Shown here one piece after another: positions 47,160 through 58,576 of a DNA stretch of 64,000 bases (positions are counted from its first letter, which is position 1; each line of letters opens with the position of its first letter). Under the pieces are notes generated by a model. It was not told the DNA's origin, did not search any database, and saw only the letters and a program-made list of their open reading frames with translations. This DNA comes from an uncultured SAR116 cluster alpha proteobacterium (GTDB lineage Bacteria; Pseudomonadota; Alphaproteobacteria; Puniceispirillales; Marisalimonadaceae): contig CACNGC010000006.1 of assembly GCA_902619805.1 (NCBI GenBank), forward strand, positions 1 through 64,000, read 5' to 3'. The position numbers and the translations under genes were made by a program.

Positions 47160-47226
47160 AATGGGACTATAGCTCAGCGGGAGAGCACTTCGTTGACATC
47201 GAAGGGGTCACTGGTTCAATCCCAGT
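47160..47226 (+). repeat. Left attachment repeat (attL), truncated tRNA-Val copy
   Basis: Identical over 67 bases to 58499-58565. It includes the 5' acceptor strand GGGACTA (47163-47169), D arm, anticodon arm with GAC and the complete T arm to CCCAGT. The next bases are AGGTTTT in place of TAGTCCC, so the acceptor stem cannot close and CCA is absent. The copy should not give a functional tRNA, though it keeps the original upstream flank. Confidence 0.92.
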
Positions 47227-47315: not shown

Positions 47316-48266
47316 ATGGCGACAATTCGTAAACGAAATAATAAGTATCAAGTACAAGTAAGAATAAGAGGAAAGAGAACATCTGCAACTTTTCATACCC
47401 TTGATCTTGCAAGACGGTGGGCAAGATCCAAAGAAGTAGAGTTCGAGAAAAATATAAAAGTAGGTATGCAATATCGTCCCAAAACACTTCTAGAGATTTT
47501 AGACAAATATAAAGAAGTTATAATTCCCCATAAGAAATCTGCTTCATCAGAAACTTATATAATTAACTCTTTTATGAAGAATAAATGGGTTGCATCTCCT
47601 CTTAATATGCTATCAACAGCGCAGATAGCTGAATACAGAGATAAGAGATTATTGAGCGTTAAACCATCTACAATTACACGTGAATTTGGTATTATAAAAC
47701 ATGCGCTACAAGTTGCAAAACTAGAATGGGACTGGGACGTACCTTTTGACCTTTTTGCAGGCATTAGACTCCCACAGATCCATCAAAGTGCTGTTCGGCG
47801 TATAAATGATCATGATCTTAAAACGTTACTGGAAGAAGCTTCAAAGCACAGTAATATCTATTTAAAGCCTATTATTTTAATAGCTTTAAATACTGCAATG
47901 AGAAGGGGAGAAATACTATCTATAAAATGGTCTGATATAGATTTAAAGCGTAATCTTATTAATATTGATAATACAAAAACTGGTTACGCTCGATCTATTA
48001 AGATCAACTATAATGTTCGAGTGATTTTCGAAAACTTAGATATAGTTGATGACAAAATATTTCCAATAAGCATAAATAGTCTGAGGCTCTGTTATCAAAG
48101 GTTATGCAACAAACTTAATATTAAAATAAGGTTCCATGATTTTAGGCACGAAGCTATAAGCCGTCTATTTCAGCAGAACCTATCTATACCCCATATTGCA
48201 TCCATAAGTGGACACAGAACAGTGTCGCAGCTATTTAGATACGCTCATTATAAAGGCTCGATTTAA
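47316..48266 (+). CDS. int: Tyrosine recombinase (integrase) of the element
   Basis: Site-specific recombinase, 316 residues. The N-terminal part (1-60) resembles an arm-binding domain, residues about 55-150 a SAM-like core-binding domain, and the catalytic domain follows with Arg196 (TAMRRGEIL), Lys221 (NTKTGYA), His274-x-x-Arg277 (FHDFRHEA), His300 (ISGHRTV) and Tyr309 (LFRYAHY), a complete set. AGGAG precedes the ATG at a good distance. It reads inward from attL and presumably targets the tRNA-Val gene. It should be active by residue content. Confidence 0.93.
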   Translation: MATIRKRNNKYQVQVRIRGKRTSATFHTLDLARRWARSKEVEFEKNIKVGMQYRPKTLLEILDKYKEVIIPHKKSASSETYIINSFMKNKWVASPLNMLSTAQIAEYRDKRLLSVKPSTITREFGIIKHALQVAKLEWDWDVPFDLFAGIRLPQIHQSAVRRINDHDLKTLLEEASKHSNIYLKPIILIALNTAMRRGEILSIKWSDIDLKRNLINIDNTKTGYARSIKINYNVRVIFENLDIVDDKIFPISINSLRLCYQRLCNKLNIKIRFHDFRHEAISRLFQQNLSIPHIASISGHRTVSQLFRYAHYKGSI

Positions 48267-48527: not shown

Positions 48528-49442
48528 TTATCTATAAGGATTTAGAATATCTATATTTTTTGTTCTTAAGAAATTAGGAATTATTTTTTTACTTATTAAG
48601 TCTCCGTTTGGACTATAATTTTTTTCTGTTTGAAGTGATGCTCCTAAAATTGATTCATCTTTTTTAGGAGTTTGATGACTTACTACAATTTTTCCATTTT
48701 TAAAAATAGTAAACCCATTTCTTCCATAATAACTTTTCTTATGACTTAAAAAACAATAATTATTTTTTACTCTTGGAACAAAAATATCTAAAACTTGAAT
48801 ATATCCGTCTGCAACAGTTACGTTGTATTTTAGTAAAAGTTCTTTTTTTCCGTTATTGTTAATGTCTTCAAAAATTGGTTCATAGAAGTATTGGATGGGT
48901 CCATTTATATCAAAAGTATCACAAGGTTGAAGTAATCTGTCAGTTTCGTGAATTTTTCCAATTCTTATTTTGGCATAATGCATGCCCACAGTATAAGCGA
49001 TTTGTTTCTCTTTCCCTTTTGCTAAGATGTACCAAGTTTCAATATATGGCTTTCCCCAAACTGAAACATATTGATTTTCACTTCCATTAATTTTTACAAG
49101 AATATTATCATCATCATCACTCTTTTGTGCCCCCCATTGATGAAGTGGTCTTGTAAAAAAGAATTGAAGAAATTCGTTTGAATATTGACCATCAATAAAG
49201 GATGTTGGTGTTGGTTTATTTTTTCTTTTATGGATAGTTTTTATAACGCTTGTTATGTTTGAATTTCCAGTACCTAAATATTTGGCAATCAAATAATCTG
49301 ATTTATAAAAATTGGAGTTTTTATATTCTATAGTTGATTGTGATAAGAAACTTTCAGGGTTAGAAGGGGAGGCATTAGCAGCGGGAACTGCTAATGCAAC
49401 TAGGAGGTTTATAAATGAAACACAAAATACTTTTAGGTTCAT
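48528..49442 (-). CDS. Secreted protein of unknown function
   Basis: Not recognised. A signal peptide is clear (MNLKVFCVSFINLLVALAVPAANA, cleavage after ANA). The mature part is mixed beta with an Asn/Asp/Gly-rich segment DINNNGKKELLLKYNVTVADG resembling calcium-binding FG-GAP/VCBS-type loops, then IQVLDIFVPRVKNNYC. Two Cys near 177 and 235 might pair. 304 residues. It lies alone on the minus strand within the element. Export to the periplasm or surface is the only thing inferred. Confidence 0.65.
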   Translation of the reverse strand: MNLKVFCVSFINLLVALAVPAANASPSNPESFLSQSTIEYKNSNFYKSDYLIAKYLGTGNSNITSVIKTIHKRKNKPTPTSFIDGQYSNEFLQFFFTRPLHQWGAQKSDDDDNILVKINGSENQYVSVWGKPYIETWYILAKGKEKQIAYTVGMHYAKIRIGKIHETDRLLQPCDTFDINGPIQYFYEPIFEDINNNGKKELLLKYNVTVADGYIQVLDIFVPRVKNNYCFLSHKKSYYGRNGFTIFKNGKIVVSHQTPKKDESILGASLQTEKNYSPNGDLISKKIIPNFLRTKNIDILNPYR

Positions 49443-49525
49443 TTTAATATTTATAAGCCTAATTAAGACTTGATTATGTATGAAATAAGGTAAGTTCGTG
49501 GCAGATAGTCAAATTATAAAATTAA

Positions 49526-50029
49526 TTAATAGGAATAATAAAAGTTTCCAGACATGTACTCTGAAGCATTTGTAATAAACAGATAGATTGGAAAAAGGTA
49601 AGGCGTCAAGTCTTGGGCTATTGGTTCAATTAAAGGAAATATTGGAAGATATATTTTTGTTTTACATAAAATTAATGAAACAGGAATAAATCCAAAAAAA
49701 GCTATAATTGGAAACAAAATAACAGAGATATTGAAAGAGTATTTTTTACCTTTAAATTCGGGAGCAGTAATTTTTGATGATATTATGTAGACACGAACTG
49801 CGTTAATTATGCACCAAACTATCATTAAGAAAGCCATACCTAAAGTTGAATAAAATAATAATTCACCCATGTAAGACATAGTTATTGATCTATTTTTCTC
49901 AATTAATAGGATATGCACAAACTCTGCAGTAAAATTGAGGCATATTACATAGGCAATAATTAATGGCAAAAAACCATAATACCAATACCACTTTCTAAGT
50001 TTACCCATAATCAATATTTGATCAGTCAT
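49526..50029 (-). CDS. Four-helix membrane protein of unknown function
   Basis: Not recognised. 167 residues with about four transmembrane helices (WYWYYGFLPLIIAYVICL, FYSTLGMAFLMIVWCIINAV, SFNISVILFPIIAFFGFIPV, and a final helix LTPYLFPIYLF). Two ATG starts are possible, 50029 and 50008 (MGKLRKWYW); the second fits the positive-inside rule well. Divergent from the next gene with a gap of about 21 bases. Role unknown. Confidence 0.6.
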   Translation of the reverse strand: MTDQILIMGKLRKWYWYYGFLPLIIAYVICLNFTAEFVHILLIEKNRSITMSYMGELLFYSTLGMAFLMIVWCIINAVRVYIISSKITAPEFKGKKYSFNISVILFPIIAFFGFIPVSLILCKTKIYLPIFPLIEPIAQDLTPYLFPIYLFITNASEYMSGNFYYSY

Positions 50030-50050
50030 AAAATAAATATTATCATAATT

Positions 50051-50521
50051 ATGAAATTACAAAAAGTATTAGTAATGGAAAGATGGGGTTATAGTGTTTT
50101 TTGGGATTTATATAGAATGAGAAGTCAATTCGAGAGTTTGTTTACAAGTAAGGATATCGTACGTGCTAAATATCCAAATGGCTGGGTAGGGTGGCTTAAT
50201 GATAAAATGTCTGACGATGATGATGGTAAATTAACTAGGTTTTCAACTATGGATGGAAGATATATGTATATCGTAGTAGAAAAACTTATAGAATATGGCT
50301 TTAGACCACCTGAGTTAATAAAAGATACTATTCATTTTCATGACTTCTATTTAAATGTTTATGAATATCTTGATTATTCACCATATGATTGCTCTAAATA
50401 CAAAAAGAAAATACCAACATGGCTGAACATACAACTGCAGCCAGAGAAAAGACTTCAAGAAATAGATGCACTTGGACTAGATGCATATGATTTTAACGGT
50501 TTAGATTATTCTTGTAATTAA
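50051..50521 (+). CDS. Cytosolic protein of unknown function
   Basis: Not recognised. About 156 residues from ATG 50051 (MKLQKVLVMERWGY); another ATG at 50075 gives MERWGYSVFW, and a TTG at 50018 gives a longer product. No helices in the membrane; a run of acidic residues (MSDDDDGK) and many aromatics. The bases around codons 4-11 recur at 50554-50575. No Shine-Dalgarno is visible, so the start is uncertain. Confidence 0.5.
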   Translation: MKLQKVLVMERWGYSVFWDLYRMRSQFESLFTSKDIVRAKYPNGWVGWLNDKMSDDDDGKLTRFSTMDGRYMYIVVEKLIEYGFRPPELIKDTIHFHDFYLNVYEYLDYSPYDCSKYKKKIPTWLNIQLQPEKRLQEIDALGLDAYDFNGLDYSCN

Positions 50522-50553
50522 CTAATAATTATCCATAAACAAATATAATGATC

Positions 50554-50575
50554 AAAAGTATTAGTAATGGAAAGA
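50554..50575 (+). repeat. 22-base copy of the start of the upstream gene
   Basis: Identical to 50062-50083, with further patchy similarity upstream (CATAAA-rich leader). In frame it would read KVLVMER and then diverge to a stop. It looks like a remnant of a tandem duplication. The surrounding gap (50522-50762, 241 bases) holds nothing else I can support. Confidence 0.5.
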
Positions 50576-50762
50576 GATGGTCTAATTAGTAGTGGCATAG
50601 ATATTTAGTATATTAATTTATTAAGTTATAAATATTTCATAAATATCTGTTTTCTATATATATATCCATTTGATTTGTTTTGGTTTTGTTTACTAAGATA
50701 TTTTATATTTTCTAAATAATAATCTCTGTCTAAGTATTTAGTTGAGTTCAATTGAGTAAGAC

Positions 50763-52031
50763 CTATGCCATTACGATCAATTCTTGGAAGATCAATTTGT
50801 GAAAATTAAAAATAGCCTCAGTCATAATATTTCTTAGATAGTTATCATGTTTATATGAAACTATGAAACTGTCATGAATGCATAAAATAGGAATATTATT
50901 TTGGGTGAATTTATTAATGATGTATTCGGTTATTTGCCCATCAATATTCATTAAGAGTATACCTTTGCCAGAGCAAAAATCATCAGCAATCTCAATATGC
51001 TTCTCTTTAATTTTGTTAAGTATTGATCTTAATTCTTTAAAGTTGAAAGAATAATTAGGAAATTGATCTTGGAGTTCATTCTTCAAGGCTCTAAAAGTTG
51101 AAGGTTCATCTTTTGCATTTATAGCAATTAGCATGAGCCTTTTTACAAGTTTTCGTGAGTCATCTTTACTATTCATCTGGGGGATGTTTATGTCATACGC
51201 ATCCCCTCGATTAAGTTTGTTATAGTCTAAACCTTTTTTTGCATATAATAGGATTGGATGAAGTGACTTGTAATCATCCTCAATAGTTGGTTCATTATTA
51301 ATATATATTTTTGATCTATAAAATGAAGGTATTCTCTGCCACCACCCTCCATAAAATCTCCCTCCATCACTCCATCTACCATTATTAAAAATTCTTGTAA
51401 TAAAACAATCATTGGACGATATGGGAATGTACTTTTCCTTAAAGTTTATTAGTGGTTTATCAAGTTCGGGTATATCAATGAATGTTTTGGCAAGTAAGCG
51501 ATTATATTCTTTTAGTGAAGCTCTCATTTTTATCGATTTTTCGTTATCAATATACTCAATATTTTTTTTATTTTCATTACGTAAGATAATTGTTTCTCTA
51601 TTCGAATTATTAACAATTTTATGTTTCTTCATTTTTGTAATTTTAAATTGCTTTATAAGTTTTTTTGTTGACCAAATTCGCGTTATTCTGCTGTGCAAAC
51701 CAGTTGGATCATAGAAACCACTAGTCAGGTTAATTAACCCAACCTCTTTTAACCGTTTTACAACATCAATTGTTTTTTGAGAAATGTGCAACTCATTATA
51801 TCTAGACTTAGTTTTATAAGCATTTCGATACATATGTACTCCAAGTTTCATATTTTGGTGTTCTGTCCACGCAATATATAAATCTAGTAAAACTACCTTA
51901 ATATGTTTTTTTACAAGATAAGGATTTTGCCACTTGAAATAATTCTCATAGATTAGGTTAATTGATTTATTTATTTCGGGATATTCTGACCATCTATGAA
52001 CATCTAGAGGTCTTGATAGATCATTTTTCAT
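50763..52031 (-). CDS. Winged-helix plus polymerase-palm-like protein of the element
   Basis: 422 residues. The N-terminal third (about 40-125) reads as a winged helix (ISQKTIDVVKRLKEVGLI, then SRITRIWST). The C-terminal half resembles the palm of family A DNA polymerases or single-subunit RNA polymerases: Asp253 in TIEDDYKSLHPILLY as motif A, Arg293/Lys297 in SRKLVKRLMLIAINA as motif B, and His386-Asp387-Ser in ILCIHDSFIV as motif C. GGRFYGGWWQRIPSFYR (224-240) is a further conserved-looking block. Proteins of this build are known to me from proteobacterial mobile DNA without a function. A replication role for the excised element is plausible but inferred. Confidence 0.6.
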   Translation of the reverse strand: MKNDLSRPLDVHRWSEYPEINKSINLIYENYFKWQNPYLVKKHIKVVLLDLYIAWTEHQNMKLGVHMYRNAYKTKSRYNELHISQKTIDVVKRLKEVGLINLTSGFYDPTGLHSRITRIWSTKKLIKQFKITKMKKHKIVNNSNRETIILRNENKKNIEYIDNEKSIKMRASLKEYNRLLAKTFIDIPELDKPLINFKEKYIPISSNDCFITRIFNNGRWSDGGRFYGGWWQRIPSFYRSKIYINNEPTIEDDYKSLHPILLYAKKGLDYNKLNRGDAYDINIPQMNSKDDSRKLVKRLMLIAINAKDEPSTFRALKNELQDQFPNYSFNFKELRSILNKIKEKHIEIADDFCSGKGILLMNIDGQITEYIINKFTQNNIPILCIHDSFIVSYKHDNYLRNIMTEAIFNFHKLIFQELIVMA

Positions 52032-52149
52032 TAAATTAATTAATATTTATTAATGCTGCAGTTTTATGACAATTGTGATTTCTGCCTTTTTCCTAACAAT
52101 TTTTAAACAAAAATGTTTTGTATTTTGAAAATTAATTAAGGAGATAAAT

Positions 52150-52677
52150 ATGAGATTTTTATTTTTACTAACTTTAAACCTATTACTATTTTCATCATTC
52201 TCATATGCAGAAACAAAATTCCCTTTTTATTTAAATATAGTTGGTGAAGATAAAAGCCTAAAAAATTTAGTTAGGACTAAAACTAAAAAATTGGTTTCTA
52301 ATTTTCCTAATTTAACGTTAAGAGAAGACAAAGATGGAAGAGTTTTTGTACAATTATTTATTTATGCGCTTAGGCATAAAAATAGCAATAATTCTAAAGA
52401 TACAATAATCCTCTCTTCGACACACGTTAATAAGCGAAGAATTGTTGAGCTAACAAAAGAAGTTTTTAAAAAAGATAGCAAAAGCTCGGAAGTTACTAAA
52501 ACAATTGCAGCAGATCTTATGCTAAGAGATAGTGGTCTTATGACACATATTAATGTTGCTGCAATAGATGACGTAAAAACAATAAATGTACCAATTACAA
52601 GATTTCTAAAAGATTTATCGAGGAATATAAAGGGATATTATGAATCATCTTTCTTTGACATGTTTAAAAATAAGTAA
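52150..52677 (+). CDS. Secreted protein of unknown function
   Basis: Not recognised. Signal peptide MRFLFLLTLNLLLFSSFSYA, then 155 residues, mixed alpha/beta, no Cys. AAGGAGA precedes the ATG by six bases, a strong ribosome site. Comes just before a 66-residue membrane protein (14 bases apart). It is on the same strand as the Hxs operon but separated by a divergent small gene. Confidence 0.65.
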   Translation: MRFLFLLTLNLLLFSSFSYAETKFPFYLNIVGEDKSLKNLVRTKTKKLVSNFPNLTLREDKDGRVFVQLFIYALRHKNSNNSKDTIILSSTHVNKRRIVELTKEVFKKDSKSSEVTKTIAADLMLRDSGLMTHINVAAIDDVKTINVPITRFLKDLSRNIKGYYESSFFDMFKNK

Positions 52678-52691
52678 AGTGAATAGAAGAA

Positions 52692-52892
52692 ATGTTTGAA
52701 GAAATTATAAAAGAAATTTTTATGGTTTGTGTTTATATCCTTCAAGTGATAGGGGGTACCCCGGGTGAGTTTGGACATGGGTATTATCTAGCAAATTTAA
52801 TAATTTTTGTGTTGTTACAACCTGCCTTGATTATTATTTTTTTTATTTTGTGGAGAATAGATAAAAGAAAAAATAATAACAAAATCAGCTAA
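52692..52892 (+). CDS. Predicted small membrane protein (66 residues)
   Basis: Frame from ATG 52692 with an N-terminal amphipathic part and a C-terminal transmembrane helix (about 37-57, LIIFVLLQPALIIIFFILW), ending in a Lys/Asn-rich tail. AGAAG upstream. The segment VIGGTPGEFGHGY is encoded by unusually GC-rich DNA for the window. Function unknown. Confidence 0.5.
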   Translation: MFEEIIKEIFMVCVYILQVIGGTPGEFGHGYYLANLIIFVLLQPALIIIFFILWRIDKRKNNNKIS

Positions 52893-52938
52893 ATAAGCAC
52901 AAAAATTTAAATAAACTTTGCCAATTGTAAATTAAGAA

Positions 52939-53103
52939 TTACCAGCTAGTTATTTTTAGACATTCAATAGAATCTGAATCATTTAAATTTATACAATTTT
53001 GATATGGTGAAGCTATATAATAAAAGAGAAGTAATAAAATAAAAGCTGCAATTAAAATTATAACTGGATTATGACTCAATATAGCAATAATGTTTTTTTT
53101 CAT
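52939..53103 (-). CDS. Predicted one-helix protein (54 residues) divergent from hxsA
   Basis: Minus-strand frame MKKNIIAILSHNPVIILIA, a transmembrane helix to about residue 30, then an outer part SPYQNCINLNDSDSIECLKI with two Cys and a final TSW. TTGGAGAA lies just ahead of the ATG. The build (helix, then a pair of Cys that could bridge) matches small marine alphaproteobacterial envelope proteins. Its start region faces the hxs promoter. Confidence 0.55.
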   Translation of the reverse strand: MKKNIIAILSHNPVIILIAAFILLLLFYYIASPYQNCINLNDSDSIECLKITSW

Positions 53104-53145
53104 TTTTTTCTCCAATTTTAGAGTATAAAATATACAAAAAAAAGT

Positions 53146-53173
53146 TTGATTAATTTAACAAATTAAGTATAAT
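53146..53173 (+). promoter_or_regulatory. Sigma-70-type promoter of the Hxs operon
   Basis: TTGATT (53146-53151) and TATAAT (53168-53173) separated by 16 bases, 25 bases ahead of the hxsA ATG; GAGGAG (53187-53192) is the ribosome site. A perfect -10 box in this position makes it a good candidate for the only promoter of the seven genes. Confidence 0.55.
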
Positions 53174-53198
53174 AGTAATAAAAATTGAGGAGATTTAA

Positions 53199-53456
53199 AT
53201 GAAAAAAAAATCTTTCCTAATACCTGTAGCTTTAGCTGCAGCTGCTTTAACTGGTATAGTTGAAGCTAATACCCTACCAAATAATATTGCTGATGACAAA
53301 ATTTCCAATGAGAAAATTGATAAGGATAATCTTACAAAAGATTTGTTAATGCTACCGAATGAAGATACAAAAAAAGAACATCTTTTTGCTCAACATTCTT
53401 CACATTATTCACATTATTCACATAGATCTCATCGCTCTCATTACTCAAGCAGATAG
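53199..53456 (+). CDS. hxsA: His-Xaa-Ser repeat peptide precursor HxsA
   Basis: 85-residue precursor of a ribosomally made, modified peptide. Residues 1-23 are a signal-like leader (MKKKSFLIPVALAAAALTGI, Sec-type); 24-64 is a hydrophilic, acidic spacer; 66-83 is six consecutive His-Xaa-Ser triplets (HSS, HYS, HYS, HRS, HRS, HYS), ending SR. This repeat defines the HxsA family. It directly precedes hxsD (4-base gap) in an operon with two radical SAM enzymes. No Cys is present, so crosslinks, if any, must involve His, Tyr, Arg or Ser side chains or backbone carbons. The modification is not known from sequence. Confidence 0.88.
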   Translation: MKKKSFLIPVALAAAALTGIVEANTLPNNIADDKISNEKIDKDNLTKDLLMLPNEDTKKEHLFAQHSSHYSHYSHRSHRSHYSSR

Positions 53457-53460
53457 GTAA

Positions 53461-53748
53461 ATGGTTATTGACCTATCTGTTTACTCTAAAGAAGTAGTTG
53501 TTTCTGTTCTACACAGACTATCTTATATTTTTACGGGTAAATTAGTATCTAAAGACAAACAAATTGCTGAGATTGAGTTTGTCAAAATTGAAAATGGATA
53601 TGATAAAGAAAATCTGGAAGAATTAATTGTAAAAGAGCTAAATGATCAAATTTTGAGAGAACGGATCAGCCAAGAAACAGAAAGTGTTCGTAATCTAATA
53701 CTTGCTCATGCCTTTTCTAGAACGAATTTTATAAAAGATAATGGCTAA
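53461..53748 (+). CDS. hxsD: His-Xaa-Ser system protein HxsD
   Basis: 95-residue accessory protein of the system. Its ELNDQILRE (residues 59-67) fits the LLNDYxLRE-type motif by which the family is recognised, and the N-terminal VSVLHRLSYIFTGKL and closing RNLILAHAF also look like HxsD. No catalytic motif; a small alpha/beta fold. It may bind the precursor leader and present it to the radical SAM enzymes, as similar small proteins do in other peptide pathways; this is inference. The stop overlaps the hxsB start by eight bases. Confidence 0.85.
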   Translation: MVIDLSVYSKEVVVSVLHRLSYIFTGKLVSKDKQIAEIEFVKIENGYDKENLEELIVKELNDQILRERISQETESVRNLILAHAFSRTNFIKDNG

Positions 53749-55189
53749 ATTTCTAAATAAAGAGGAATTTTACAAAGATAATCAAAAATATAGTCTTTTA
53801 CCGTTCAAATTTAGTGATTTTGACAAAGATACAAAAATTTTAAGTAACATGATAGGTGAGTTTCAATTACTTCCTAATTCTACTTTCGAAGACTTTGTTA
53901 ATAACAATTTGACAAATGACAATTCTCTTTATTCTGATTTAAGAGATAAACATTTTTTTACAGATACAAATACATCTGTGGCATTAGATTTATTACCTAT
54001 AAAAATTAGAACAAAATACCAAATGTTATCTAATTTTACCGCCCTTCATATTTTTGTTGTGTCGCTTCGTTGTGAACACAGTTGTCCTTATTGCCAAGTC
54101 TCTAGGCAATCACAAGATAAAAATACATTTGATATGGATGAAGACAAAGCTGAAAAAGCGTTAAACTTAGTTTTTCAATCACCTTCTGAAAATATTAAAA
54201 TTGAGTTTCAAGGTGGGGAACCACTTTTGAATTTTGAAATTGTAAAGTTTATTGTGCTAAAAGCGATTGAAATAAAACCAAATGAGAAAAATCTAAGCTT
54301 TGTTATTGCTACTAATTTAGCCTTAATAAACAATGAAATTCTAGAATTTTGTTCAAAGTATAATATTCTCATTTCTACATCACTTGATGGTCCTAAGGAT
54401 ATACATAACAAAAATCGTCCTAGAAAAGGAAATAACAGTTATGAAAAAACAATTGAGGGTATTAACCTATCAAGGGCCTATCTAGGCTTTGATTCTGTTT
54501 CTGCTCTTATGACTACTACCTATGATAGTTTGCCTAGAGTAGAAGAAATTATTGACGAATATATTAAAAATAAGTTTTCAGGTATTTTTTTAAGACCCTT
54601 GTCTCCTCACGGCTTTGCAATCAAAACGAAATCGTATTCGAAATATAGATTCAATGAATGGTTAGACTTTTATAAAAAAGGATTAGATTATATTATTAAT
54701 TTGAATAAAAATGGTATTGAATTTTTTGAACATTTTTCTCAAGTTATTTTAAAAAAAATGCTTACATCTGATTCTGATGGTTATGTTGATTTAATGAACC
54801 CTTCAGGCTTAGGAATAGCAGTTGCTGTATACAATTATGATGGAAAAATCTATGCCTCTGACGAAGGTAGAATGTTAGCCGAGACTGGTGATGATTATTT
54901 TTGTTTAGGATCAGTAGAAGATGAATACTCAGATATTTTTACGTCTGAAAAATTATTAAATGTGCTTGATACTACCTTTACCAAAAGTGCTCCTTTGTGT
55001 GCTGATTGTGTATACGAAGAATATTGTGGTGCAGATCCCGTGTTTCATTATGCAACCCAAAAGGATATTGTAGGACATAAACCTACATCTGAATTTTGCA
55101 ATAGAAATATAGAAGTTTTCAAATATCTAATAAAGTTAATGAATGAATCAAAGTATGTAGAAAATTTGTTTAGAAGTTGGGTAAGATAA
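53741..55189 (+). CDS. hxsB: Radical SAM peptide maturase HxsB
   Basis: 482-residue radical SAM enzyme. An N-terminal region of about 100 residues precedes the cluster motif Cys111-x3-Cys115-x2-Cys118 (RCEHSCPYCQV); FQGGEPLLNFE is the SAM-binding GGE motif. The C-terminal part has the Cys-rich CADCVYEEYCGAD and a late SEFCNRN, a SPASM-type domain holding auxiliary iron-sulfur clusters, as in enzymes that modify peptides. Acts in the cytosol, presumably on HxsA before export. Its TAA overlaps the hxsC ATG (TAATG). Confidence 0.9.
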   Translation: MAKFLNKEEFYKDNQKYSLLPFKFSDFDKDTKILSNMIGEFQLLPNSTFEDFVNNNLTNDNSLYSDLRDKHFFTDTNTSVALDLLPIKIRTKYQMLSNFTALHIFVVSLRCEHSCPYCQVSRQSQDKNTFDMDEDKAEKALNLVFQSPSENIKIEFQGGEPLLNFEIVKFIVLKAIEIKPNEKNLSFVIATNLALINNEILEFCSKYNILISTSLDGPKDIHNKNRPRKGNNSYEKTIEGINLSRAYLGFDSVSALMTTTYDSLPRVEEIIDEYIKNKFSGIFLRPLSPHGFAIKTKSYSKYRFNEWLDFYKKGLDYIINLNKNGIEFFEHFSQVILKKMLTSDSDGYVDLMNPSGLGIAVAVYNYDGKIYASDEGRMLAETGDDYFCLGSVEDEYSDIFTSEKLLNVLDTTFTKSAPLCADCVYEEYCGADPVFHYATQKDIVGHKPTSEFCNRNIEVFKYLIKLMNESKYVENLFRSWVR

Positions 55190-56355
55190 TGTTGAAATTA
55201 TCAGGCAATTTTGAGCATTTTAATGAATTAGATTTTTCAAGAAAAATGTTTAAGGTTACTTCCAATTATCATTTACCAAAAGTACTTCATCAAGACTGTA
55301 TTTTTCTAAATAAAGGTAATGATTTACATCCTAATTTTGATTTTCAATTAACTTTTAATAAAAAAAATCTTAAACAGTCTAATAAAAATATTATTTTTTT
55401 AGAAACTGATTTTAAATATTTAAGTGATGATGATGTTTTAGTTCTTGATTCTAAAACAAAAAGAACGCGAGTATTATATCGAACTAATTCCCCAAACAAT
55501 TACATTCTCTTGACTGAAAGATGTAATCATTACTGTTTAATGTGCTCGCAACCTCCAAAAAATATTGATGATTCTTTTTTGATTAATGAAGCTATGGAAT
55601 TAATAGACTATTTGCCAAGAAATTTGTCTAATTTTGGTCTAACTGGTGGAGAGCCGACATTATATGGTGATCAGCTTATTACTTTAGTTAATAAATTTAA
55701 AGTTTTTTTACCAGATACACAACTAGATATTTTGACAAATGGTAGGGCTTTTTTGAATCAAAATTACTCACTGGCTTTAGCTAAAATCAAACATCGAAAA
55801 TTAAGAATAGCAGTACCTGTTTATTCCTCAAACCCCATTACACATGATTATGTGGTGCAATCTGAAGGGGCATTTGATGAAACTATAAAAGGTATTTTAG
55901 AACTTAAAAAATTAAATATTAACGTTGAGATTAGAGTTGTGCTTCATAGTGTAACAATTCCTGATCTTGTTTCATTAGCAAAATATATAGTAAGAAACCT
56001 TCGATTTGTTGATCATGTGGCATTAATGGGTCTAGAAATCACAGGCTTTACAAGAGCTAATTTTGATTTGTTGTGGATAGATCCGTGGGATTATAAGGAT
56101 ATTTTGAGTGAGGCAGTATCTATATTAAATGATTATAATGTTCCTACGTCAGTCTATAACAATCAACTCTGTTTAATCAATGAAGATACCAAGTCTAACT
56201 ATCAAAAATCAATTAGTGACTGGAAAAACGAATATATTGATGAATGTAAAAAATGTACTAAAATATTAGAGTGCGGAGGATTTTTTTCTTCAGCAGTCCA
56301 GCATGGGTATAGTAATCATATCAAAGCATTTAAAAATGAAGCTAATCAAATTTAA
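55189..56355 (+). CDS. hxsC: Radical SAM peptide maturase HxsC
   Basis: 388-residue second radical SAM enzyme. Cluster motif Cys112-x3-Cys116-x2-Cys119 (RCNHYCLMCSQPP), LTGGEPTLYG as the SAM-binding GGE motif, and LTNGRAF. The C-terminal CKKCTKILECGGFF could hold one auxiliary cluster site. The sequence differs from HxsB throughout, so the two probably do different reactions or work as a pair. The ATG at 55189 is coupled to the hxsB stop; an upstream TTG at 55177 is less likely. Confidence 0.9.
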   Translation: MLKLSGNFEHFNELDFSRKMFKVTSNYHLPKVLHQDCIFLNKGNDLHPNFDFQLTFNKKNLKQSNKNIIFLETDFKYLSDDDVLVLDSKTKRTRVLYRTNSPNNYILLTERCNHYCLMCSQPPKNIDDSFLINEAMELIDYLPRNLSNFGLTGGEPTLYGDQLITLVNKFKVFLPDTQLDILTNGRAFLNQNYSLALAKIKHRKLRIAVPVYSSNPITHDYVVQSEGAFDETIKGILELKKLNINVEIRVVLHSVTIPDLVSLAKYIVRNLRFVDHVALMGLEITGFTRANFDLLWIDPWDYKDILSEAVSILNDYNVPTSVYNNQLCLINEDTKSNYQKSISDWKNEYIDECKKCTKILECGGFFSSAVQHGYSNHIKAFKNEANQI

Positions 56356-56773
56356 AGAGTATAAGTTAGTTGCTATTACATTTTGTAATATAATATTATT
56401 TTTATTTTTATATTATCAGCATAGGATTTATTTATCTCAAGGTGCAATTATTTGTTATGGAAACAACTGTAACAATTCTAATTTAGAAAAGAAATTTTCA
56501 GACGTTAGAAATGAAAGAAGTACTCCTACTGAATTTATCCTTCCCTCGTCAACAGTAGTTGCAAAAATACAAGAAGAAAAGAAAAGTAAAAGATTAAATG
56601 TTGAGGAAATGAACTGTTTAATAAAATTAGATGATTTAGGATTTAAAATTTTAGACTTAACTTCAGCAAGTAATGCCAATAGTATTGCTGCAATTTTTGA
56701 ATTTCAAGAAAATTTGAACATTCGAACTAACGGAAAATTAGATACTGAAACTAGATCAAATCTGGGTTGTTAA
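56336..56773 (+). CDS. Membrane-anchored peptidoglycan-binding protein of the Hxs operon
   Basis: 145 residues from ATG 56336, overlapping the hxsC end by 20 bases. A transmembrane helix (about 10-32) follows a positive start; a Cys pair (CYGNNCNN) comes next, and the C-terminal 60 residues match a type-1 peptidoglycan-binding domain (LDDLGFKILD, FEFQENLNIRTNGKLDTETR). It would sit in the periplasm on the cell wall. In some Hxs systems, to my recollection, this domain is part of HxsA; here it is separate. Its role may be to position the matured peptide. Confidence 0.7.
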   Translation: MKLIKFKEYKLVAITFCNIILFLFLYYQHRIYLSQGAIICYGNNCNNSNLEKKFSDVRNERSTPTEFILPSSTVVAKIQEEKKSKRLNVEEMNCLIKLDDLGFKILDLTSASNANSIAAIFEFQENLNIRTNGKLDTETRSNLGC

Positions 56774-56777
56774 TGAT

Positions 56778-57164
56778 ATGAAATTCAAAACACTTATCTA
56801 TATCAACGTTATCTGTTCTATAGTTATAATTTTTTTAGGAGCAAAAATTTTTGTTGCTCCTATAATGGGTAAATTTTTTTGGGGAGAAGAATATAAGAAA
56901 TTAGCTTTTGGTTGTGATAATGTAATGAGAGAACATCTAATAACAAAGAATGAATTGAAAGCTAATGTAAATAAAAAAAACGTTCAAAATTTAAGATCTG
57001 CAGAACTTGGACTTTTATCTTGTAACGATTATGATAAGCTTAGGAAAAAACTATTGATTTGGGGTGTAAGTAATAGAGAGCTATCATTACTTAGTCTTGA
57101 AGCGATAGAGGAAAACACAAAAGATGTTAGAGATTTTATAAAAACACATGAGTTTCGTTATTAA
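56778..57164 (+). CDS. Small membrane-anchored Hxs-associated protein
   Basis: 128 residues. One N-terminal transmembrane helix (about 6-29, IYINVICSIVIIFLGAKIFVA) then a helical periplasmic part with two Cys (FGCDN, LSCNDY) and the tail GVSNRELSLLSLEAIEENTKDVRDF. I recall that small proteins of this size are modelled as part of His-Xaa-Ser systems (the TIGR03982 group), and this may be one, but I cannot verify it. It overlaps the di-heme gene by 17 bases and starts five bases after the preceding stop. Confidence 0.6.
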   Translation: MKFKTLIYINVICSIVIIFLGAKIFVAPIMGKFFWGEEYKKLAFGCDNVMREHLITKNELKANVNKKNVQNLRSAELGLLSCNDYDKLRKKLLIWGVSNRELSLLSLEAIEENTKDVRDFIKTHEFRY

Positions 57165-58353
57165 ATTTATTTTAATATTATGTTTGCTATTCACTTCCAA
57201 TAATCTGTTTGCTGATGGCAAAAGTGAGATTTTAAAACAATTCATTTTAAAAAATGGATTTGTTCCTCACCAACAGTTATTTAATAACAAAGATAGTAAT
57301 TTATCTAAAGTAGGAAAGGTACTGTTTAATTCTACAGCTATAAGTCTTAATGGTGATATTTCCTGTTCAACATGTCATTTAGATAATAAAGGTTCTGCTG
57401 ATGGACTTCCAATTGCAGCGGCTATTGGTGGCTCAGGAGAGGGAATTGAGCGCTTTAAATCGGGAGCTCAACTTTTACCAAGAAACACTCTTCCATTTTG
57501 GGGAAGAGGCGGTATAGGTTATGATACTTTTTTTTGGGATGGTAAAGTTCAACTCTTAGAAGGAAGTGTTTCAAGCCAGTTTGGAACCTCTCCTCCCAGC
57601 AACGATCCTTTTGAAGTTGCTGTTCATCTTCCAGCAGTCCAAATTAGAGAAATGCTTTCAGACGGGATGGGTGTAGAAAAACTAAAACAAGAAAATGTAA
57701 ATGTGGCAAATACAACATATGACATAATTACAGAAAAATTGAAAAAGTATGAAATGCATGCCTCTGCTAAATTGGCAGAAACGCTAAAAAAATCAAAAAA
57801 TAACCTAACGTTTAGTGATTATGCAAGATCTCTTGCAGCTTTTATAAGAGATAAATTCCGTATTAAAGAAACTAAATTAGAAAGATTTGTTAATAATGAA
57901 ACAACCTTGTCAAAAAACGAATTAAATGGTGGTTTAATCTTTTACGGTAAAGGTAGGTGTGCAACATGTCATTCTGGACCATATTTTTCTGATTTTGATT
58001 TTTATTCAGTTCCATTTCCGCAACTAGGTTTTGGGGCAAATGGCTTTGGAGTTGATTATGGTAGGTATAATGTAACATTTGATACTAATGATTTATACAA
58101 ATTTAGAACGCCGCCACTTCATAATGTAGAAAAGACCGCACCATATGGACATGATGGTAGTTTATCAACTTTAAATGAAGCAATTATAGCCCATTTTGAT
58201 CCCTTAAGATTAATTGATTTGAACGAAATGGACACTAAAAAGAGACATTATTTTTATCAAAAGCTTGCTTCTAGCGACTCCTTAAACGTAAATTATTTAA
58301 CTGATAGTGAGGTAGATAATCTCGTTGATTTTCTAAAACTTTTGAATTATTGA
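57148..58353 (+). CDS. MauG-like di-heme cytochrome c peroxidase-family protein
   Basis: 401 residues with a signal peptide (MSFVIKFILILCLLFTSNNLFA) and two c-type heme sites: Cys73-x2-Cys76-His77 (SCSTCH) and Cys271-x2-Cys274-His275 (RCATCH). FWDGKVQLLEGSVSSQF and the C-terminal TPPLHNVEKTAPYGHDGSL fit the bacterial di-heme peroxidase/MauG/MbnH family. MauG and MbnH oxidise protein Trp residues; a MauG-like protein has been listed with His-Xaa-Ser systems as a putative maturation enzyme. A periplasmic second-step oxidation of HxsA is therefore likely, but not shown. It is the last gene of the operon. Confidence 0.87.
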   Translation: MSFVIKFILILCLLFTSNNLFADGKSEILKQFILKNGFVPHQQLFNNKDSNLSKVGKVLFNSTAISLNGDISCSTCHLDNKGSADGLPIAAAIGGSGEGIERFKSGAQLLPRNTLPFWGRGGIGYDTFFWDGKVQLLEGSVSSQFGTSPPSNDPFEVAVHLPAVQIREMLSDGMGVEKLKQENVNVANTTYDIITEKLKKYEMHASAKLAETLKKSKNNLTFSDYARSLAAFIRDKFRIKETKLERFVNNETTLSKNELNGGLIFYGKGRCATCHSGPYFSDFDFYSVPFPQLGFGANGFGVDYGRYNVTFDTNDLYKFRTPPLHNVEKTAPYGHDGSLSTLNEAIIAHFDPLRLIDLNEMDTKKRHYFYQKLASSDSLNVNYLTDSEVDNLVDFLKLLNY

Positions 58354-58375
58354 ATGACTAAAATATAAAATTAAA

Positions 58376-58393
58376 TGTCACACTGGTGTCACA
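58376..58393 (+). promoter_or_regulatory. Putative right arm-type recombinase site
   Basis: TGTCAC-N6-GTCACA with two GTCAC boxes 11 bases apart, 106 bases inside attR and oriented like the one at the left end (14 of 18 bases shared). Candidate integrase or excisionase arm site; inferred from matching position and sequence only. Confidence 0.4.
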
Positions 58394-58498
58394 CCTTGAA
58401 TGAAAAATCATTGATAATCCCATAAATTTATATATATATAATCCTTACAGCAACGTTTAAGGTAGACTATATTACAAGCATTTAATAAACATTTTGAT

Positions 58499-58565
58499 AA
58501 TGGGACTATAGCTCAGCGGGAGAGCACTTCGTTGACATCGAAGGGGTCACTGGTTCAATCCCAGT
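58499..58565 (+). repeat. Right attachment repeat (attR)
   Basis: Perfect 67-base copy of 47160-47226, forming the 5' part of the complete tRNA-Val gene. Identity stops one base short of the 3' acceptor strand, so the crossover lies within this segment. The promoter of this tRNA copy is now element DNA. Confidence 0.92.
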
Positions 58566-58576
58566 TAGTCCCACCA
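58502..58576 (+). tRNA. tRNA-Val (anticodon GAC), intact copy at attR
   Basis: Acceptor GGGACTA pairs fully with TAGTCCC (58566-58572); discriminator A, encoded CCA (58574-58576). Anticodon stem CTTCG/CGAAG with loop TTGACAT (anticodon GAC, reading GUU/GUC). T arm ACTGG-TTCAATC-CCAGT. It is the only complete tRNA-Val in the window and is fed by sequence from inside the element. Confidence 0.95.

Follow-up and report, generated by a model that had tools for sequence, protein, structure and literature searches.

The Hxs (HxsABCD) system was reportedly defined by Haft and Basu through comparative genomics. It is a widespread radical S-adenosylmethionine (SAM) peptide system, and the open-access literature searched reports neither its product nor its purpose: as the original prediction had it, neither HxsA, HxsB, HxsC or HxsD nor "His-Xaa-Ser" led to a characterised product there. 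Peptides carrying HxS motifs putatively depend on HxsB and HxsC for maturation (PMC9062424, which cites Haft and Basu as reference 10), and two papers list hxs genes among the accessory or island DNA in Pseudomonas aeruginosa and Vibrio parahaemolyticus; that they can be mobile is therefore no novelty. We analysed a 64,000-nt stretch of contig CACNGC010000006.1 from an uncultured alphaproteobacterium (the window, always meaning the whole stretch) and found at 53199-58353 of its + strand a complete Hxs (His-Xaa-Ser) peptide-modification operon. This is a well-delimited member of a known system without an explained purpose; its arrangement is rare, and a mobile element carries it. To our knowledge, the new points are the limits of the cassette drawn from sister elements, the Ser-only rule with its numbers, the split layout and the observation on His349 of the di-heme protein. 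In our judgment the balance tips slightly towards the view that the operon is exchangeable cargo whose precursor peptide, HxsA2, is modified, exported and linked to the wall via a separate peptidoglycan-binding-like protein (PGB), with a di-heme pair servicing its tail.

All seven open reading frames (ORFs) of the operon are intact and lie in the order hxsA2-hxsD-hxsB-hxsC, the gene of the anchored PGB, a TIGR03982 gene and a TIGR03981 di-heme gene (Table 1), so the content, place, strand and tight spacing originally described are borne out. The junctions are operon-like: 4 nt separate hxsA2 from hxsD and the PGB gene from the TIGR03982 gene, while overlaps of 8, 1, about 20 and 17 nt join hxsD to hxsB, hxsB to hxsC (ATG at 55189), hxsC to the PGB gene (likely ATG at 56336) and the TIGR03982 gene to the TIGR03981 gene, respectively. 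The proteins were scanned with Pfam and with NCBIfam models, the latter judged against their curated cut-offs. HxsB (TIGR03978, 593.5 bits, cut-off 370), HxsC (TIGR03977, 363.2, cut-off 267.9), HxsD (TIGR03976, 60.6, cut-off 50), the TIGR03982 protein (99.8, cut-off 40) and the TIGR03981 protein (401.6, cut-off 340) all pass, and HxsA2 is barely over its cut-off (NF038296, 49.2, cut-off 48). The Hxs set is thus complete, and HxsB and HxsC each match their own equivalog model and do not fall into unrelated radical SAM groups. The "one good promoter" proposed for the operon is plausible as the sole + strand site with 10/12 matches (TTGATT-16-TATAAT at 53146-53173), but promoter-like sites in the region show no excess over shuffled sequence (30 vs 35.9 ± 6.5).

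The operon was predicted to be cargo of an integrative element, and it is carried by an 11.4-kb one in tRNA-Val(GAC), as integrase, att repeats and empty sites all indicate. The tRNA gene occurs twice in the window within a perfect 67-nt repeat (47160-47226 and 58499-58565); only the right copy is complete with its acceptor stem, and the left one folds without it. Two of the 40 genomes of the genus (G039 and G015) have the empty site, in which both flanks lie around one tRNA and their matches overlap by exactly 67 bp. Three relatives (G007, G014, G026) carry sister elements at the same tRNA-Val with the same integrase and core ORFs. In the comparison with G007, identity amounts to 96.0% over 50058-52872, homology is then lost, and it returns over 58376-58565 with 98.4% identity. 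Since sister homology stops at 52872 and resumes at 58376, the hxs operon is a 5.5-kb replacement in a cargo slot, which in the sisters holds a TerB-like protein, a trypsin-like peptidase, a Sel1-repeat protein and unknowns. This swap of cargo rules out that the hxs locus is non-mobile. Cassette limits drawn from a 96-98% identical sister element also offer a comparison with and without the cassette inside one genus. The base composition of the cassette is not distinct from its surroundings, and the bins of the window have 26-34% GC in an assembly of 1.98 Mb, in agreement with the AT-rich genome predicted.

The precursor ends, as predicted, in six tandem HxS triplets (residues 66-83, HSSHYSHYSHRSHRSHYS). 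Among the 18,377 ORFs from 116 HxsB loci, which were searched with Jackhmmer, tandem HX[ST] runs of four or more occur only in HxsA-type ORFs beside hxs genes and control motifs occur 0 times, which rules out the tail as chance or artefact. The expected conservation of the tail holds: all 115 HxsA-family precursors of the survey have an HxS run, and an ORF with such a run lies near hxsB in 112 of the 116 loci, several of the remaining ones being cut contigs. We collected 87 distinct tandem H-x-x runs, permitting any residue at the third place, and found Ser there in 522 of 523 triplets and Thr in 0, a count to be read with the caveat that the precursors were gathered with a profile that includes the repeat. 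The X position is variable (Ser, Ala, Arg, Tyr, Gly and others). Because Ser is nearly always third while X varies, the enzymes HxsB and HxsC would act on Ser and/or His of the triplet. The absence of Thr from the third place suggests that a beta-methyl group is not tolerated and would fit chemistry at the beta carbon of Ser. The strict Ser-only rule thereby narrows the chemistry. A motif in the signal region of HxsA was considered as a recognition motif; it is held in just 59 of 115 sequences and none is claimed.

HxsB has C111xxxC115xxC118 together with C420, C423, C429 and C453, and invariant D374, E375, R377 and M378 (conservation over 116 rows), and HxsC has C112xxxC116xxC119 together with C328, C353, C356 and C362 (114 rows). 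Each thus possesses seven Cys that are invariant or nearly so; three belong to the SAM cluster, and the other four, close to the C terminus, would serve one auxiliary cluster in each enzyme. The closest PDB relatives of HxsB are 5wgg and anSME, the latter oxidising Ser or Cys to formylglycine within a short motif. D374 aligns with the Asp of the "YPCD" stretch of anSME, and the anSME Cys close by are replaced in HxsB. Although anSME is the closest solved radical SAM relative, HxsB differs from it in retaining four of the C-terminal cluster Cys without the Cys of anSME around GTCTC and YPC. HxsD is confidently predicted as beta-alpha-beta-beta-long alpha, and PqqD has another order of elements. 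When the model was compared by Foldseek and VIA-align with a view to a PqqD-like RiPP recognition element (RiPP: ribosomally synthesised and post-translationally modified peptide), only middling matches and no convincing PDB match were obtained. We infer that HxsD presents the substrate.

Single-sequence HxsB queries of the genome and viral collections returned no relatives, and alignment-based repeats succeeded, HxsB alignment A2 giving 80 genome loci and 16 viral-contig loci. At a threshold of E 1e-80, 1 genome out of 58 from the family and 15 out of 398 sampled across the phylum have HxsB; the distribution is patchy. HxsB also occurs in 371 plasmid records (315 from Klebsiella) and in 2 phage records, including Leptospira phage vB_LnoZ_CZ214-LE1 with hxsA-D-B-C. 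The survey of neighbours that had been recommended found HxsC in 116 and HxsD in 106 of the 116 HxsB loci. Two layouts prevail: in one, A2-D-B-C, the precursor is short; in the other, (D-)B-C-A, it is long and its repeat is followed by PG_binding_1 or, in the long forms of Myxococcota, by a PEGA-like tail. Hundreds of Klebsiella plasmid records, most of them conjugative, carry a divergent hxsD-B-C-A (about 30% HxsB identity), which in L022 has a mer operon as its neighbour. In about ten loci a class I SAM methyltransferase stands beside the hxs genes, downstream of hxsC (L043, L047, L073, L076, L082, L088, L089) or upstream of the hxs genes (L024, L096, L114), and could possibly provide an alternative tailoring step.

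The window shares with the described Hxs system (TIGR03976-TIGR03979) the adjacency of HxsB, HxsC, HxsD and an HxS precursor in the common order A2-D-B-C, and differs from it by a separate peptidoglycan-binding protein, TIGR03982 and TIGR03981. The last two also occur as a pair in Polynucleobacter sp. MWH-Jannik1A5 (L074), in the PS1-clade single-cell genome AG-349-L06 (L084), in a viral contig (L123) and on two Rhodobacterales plasmids. In L123 and on both plasmids a long HxsA directly precedes the pair, and in L123 and the Tritonibacter plasmid (L149) this HxsA unites the HxS repeat and PG_binding_1. Like those of the long-HxsA systems (Tritonibacter NZ_CP136707.1, Thioclava NZ_CP149519.1, L123), the operon in the window ends with TIGR03982-TIGR03981, in this order; however, their repeat and PG_binding_1 form one protein after hxsC, whereas in the window they are two proteins and the repeat comes first in the operon. 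L074 and L084 are organised like the window: a tail-less peptidoglycan-binding protein fills the slot of the long HxsA, and the repeat is on HxsA2 upstream. This split layout, with repeat peptide and wall-binding part as separate genes, is a rare arrangement, since the combination of separate PGB, TIGR03982 and TIGR03981 was met in 2 of the 116 surveyed loci plus the window.

The three PGBs have an invariant RN-x2-STP-x2-F-[IV]-LP motif and two invariant Cys; that of the window has one N-terminal transmembrane (TM) segment, a C-terminal PG_binding_1-like domain and no HxS tail. The PGB may have originated by fission of a long HxsA or by recruitment. That long HxsA fuses the repeat to PG_binding_1 while the split loci separate them is a fusion/fission argument for display at the wall. 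The original claim that HxsA itself is held at the wall needs correction in that HxsA2 has no anchor; the wall-binding domain is on the separate protein. A split operon thus parts the modified peptide from its anchor, and each can be tested alone. The same comparison bears on the idea of a diffusible RiPP, a bacteriocin or signal released once matured, which two radical SAM maturases next to a short precursor would suggest, HxsB moreover scoring against many RiPP maturase models. We regard it as distinctly unlikely: long HxsA forms tie the repeat to a wall domain, the N terminus of HxsA2 is like a Sec signal and not like a leader with a cleavage site ahead of the repeat, and the cassette has no protease, ABC exporter or immunity gene.

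The split loci of the window, L074 and L084 each lie in a tRNA-associated element of their own. In L084 (5710-19031), 84-nt tRNA-Thr repeats 13.2 kb apart enclose the full split Hxs cassette and an MvaI/BcnI restriction-modification pair; in L074 the 3' end of a tRNA-Ser gene recurs 17.5 kb away (20 nt, 90%) and integrase, AlpA and a VapE-like primase are present. The L123 cassette is immediately beyond a tRNA-Cys repeat enclosing genes for phage tail, endolysin and spanin. One would argue that a modified surface peptide shields its carrier from phages or mobile elements, as Hxs is met on the Leptospira phage record, on prophage-adjacent DNA, on conjugative plasmids and in tRNA islands, that of L084 carrying restriction-modification genes as well. 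However, the status of cargo is no proof of defence, and the same slot of the sister elements has no recognised defence genes. A PADLOC scan of HxsB, HxsC, the di-heme protein and the sister-element cargo gave no defence model beyond weak viperin matches (31-37 bits), which are radical SAM matches at superfamily level. The suggested defence trait thus found no support, and we give exclusion of this kind very little credence.

The di-heme TIGR03981 protein resembles MauG and MbnH in its two CXXCH haem motifs (73, 271), CCP_MauG domain (PF03150, 61 bits), signal-peptide-like N terminus and possible partner nearby, and differs from them in that the partner would be a peptide, not MADH or MbnP, and in that His349 replaces the axial Tyr. 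In phmmer alignments, His349 falls on chain position 294 of MauG 3l4m and on Tyr312 of MbnH 6e1c. The alignment to 3orv, the top-scoring MauG chain, which we take to be the Y294H mutant, is shifted one residue further. His349 is invariant in 21 of 21 proteins compared, Hxs-linked or not, and only the six that are Hxs-linked have Tyr at position 304. MauGs conserve Tyr294, whereas cytochrome c peroxidases (CCPs) have Met or His instead (PMC7567364). This axial-ligand argument comes from sequence alignment, the structure model built from four sequences being unusable (pLDDT 36.9). It suggests that the protein may work as an electron-transfer partner or in the manner of a peroxidase, and not as an oxidase of the MauG type, it weakens the claim that the peptide is finished by the di-heme protein, and it means that the label "MauG-like" should not be taken as MauG chemistry. 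Relatives of TIGR03981 away from hxs genes, in genomes from a single family within the same class (L135-L148) and between aldose epimerase and CRTAC1 genes on a Phaeobacter plasmid (L151), keep the invariant His. A MauG-like query found none in phages and no viral contig beyond the one already found.

These data also bear on the possibility that HxsA2 is modified to a periplasmic ligand of copper or another metal, with the di-heme protein acting as CorB, SACCP or MbnH do beside CorA, MopE or MbnP. His at every third residue would suit such a role, the MbnH family (TIGR04039, 96.4 bits) is the next-best NCBIfam match of the di-heme protein, and di-heme enzymes of this kind are thought to modify copper-site residues of partner proteins (PMC3621798). 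On the other hand, MauG and MbnH have Tyr where the window has His349, the di-heme gene is absent from most surveyed Hxs loci, and neither a transporter nor a regulator of metals was recognised among the cassette genes. We consider this metal-ligand reading unlikely.

Under the reading of exchangeable cargo with a wall-linked peptide, HxsB and HxsC with HxsD would modify the cytosolic HxsA2 precursor at Ser (and/or His) in every HxS triplet, with no constraint on X. HxsA2 would then be exported by Sec and display its tail in the periplasm, with wall contact through the membrane-anchored PGB in the slot of the long self-anchoring HxsA. The TIGR03982 membrane protein, whose two Cys are invariant in four orthologs, and the periplasmic di-heme protein would be a coupled pair acting on the displayed tail or exchanging electrons with it. 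It is likely that a Ser/His-modified peptide is displayed in the envelope, and the host probably profits through a property of that envelope: redox or metal handling, or protection of the surface.

Several points weigh against this scheme. The modified product is predicted from genes, and the site of modification and its order relative to export are our inference. The PGB of the window was called an anchored peptidoglycan-binding protein; its TM anchor stands, but PG_binding_1 is below the Pfam cut-off in the window (16.1 vs 23 bits), the L074 ortholog exceeding it with 34.4 bits, and the profile match of the PGB to the peptidoglycan-binding region of HxsA is modest (48 columns, probability 53, E 1.4e-4). 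In the HxsB tree, L074, L039 and L040 form a group with the window (SH-aLRT 83), which is a long branch of unsure placement, and L084 is placed elsewhere. The extended set of TIGR03982 and TIGR03981 is scattered on this tree with four changes, at least three of them forced, so the extended module was moved or lost repeatedly and its link to the HxsA2-type core may be loose. As a broader and quite tentative idea, to which we assign low confidence, mobile elements of unrelated bacteria would independently carry a traded envelope device made of a wall-displayed modified repeat, a separate anchor and a periplasmic His-type di-heme enzyme that services it, with a protective or competitive gain, and this would constitute a new, anchored and non-diffusible class of RiPPs.

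Table 1. Features of the integrative element and of the hxs operon in the window
Feature	Position	Strand	Remarks
Left att copy	47160..47226	+	5' 64 nt of tRNA-Val(GAC) + 3 nt upstream; acceptor 3' half lost
Tyrosine integrase	47316..48266	+	PF00589, 78.8 bits; orthologs in sister elements L185, L186, L189
Element core	48528..52892	mixed	87-96% DNA identity to L186 over 48533-52872
Core ORFs	48528-49442, 49526-50029, 50018-50521, 50763-52031, 52150-52677, 52692-52892	-, -, +, -, +, +	
hxs cassette (swapped cargo slot)	52873..58375	+	sister homology ends 52872, restarts 58376
hxsA2, precursor	53199..53456	+	signal-peptide-like N terminus, spacer, six HxS triplets; NF038296
hxsD, small partner protein	53461..53748	+	TIGR03976; predicted fold pLDDT 91.5
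hxsB, radical SAM maturase	53741..55189	+	TIGR03978; conservation over 116 rows
hxsC, radical SAM maturase	55189..56355	+	TIGR03977; conservation over 114 rows
PGB	56336..56773	+	likely start 56336, ORF opens 56303; TM anchor, PG_binding_1-like C-terminal domain
TIGR03982 family protein	56778..57164	+	single N-terminal TM; C46, C82
TIGR03981 di-heme "MauG-like" protein	57148..58353	+	C73xxCH77, C271xxCH275, H349
Right end of element before attR	58376..58498	+	58376-58565: 98.4% L186, 91.4% L189, 76.4% L185
Right att copy	58499..58576	+	within complete tRNA-Val(GAC) 58502-58576

Concerning the rest of the element, the four larger core ORFs gave no Pfam match to a relaxase or type IV secretion, the smaller ORFs not all having been scanned, and the att sequence has no match in viral contigs. 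The core protein at 50763-52031 (-) is phrog_4756, of unknown function, with polymerase-reminiscent motifs (IEDDYKSLHP ... IHDSFIV); neither Pfam nor PDB gave a match for it. Towards the C terminus the window copy is apparently frameshifted: its tail is encoded apart, by a 41-aa ORF (50626-50751, -), and L186 has the tail in a single frame. The tRNA-Val(GAC) gene is an integration hotspot of the genus, with different elements or inserts of about 2-15 kb at or beside it in many relatives (L185-L190 and L192).

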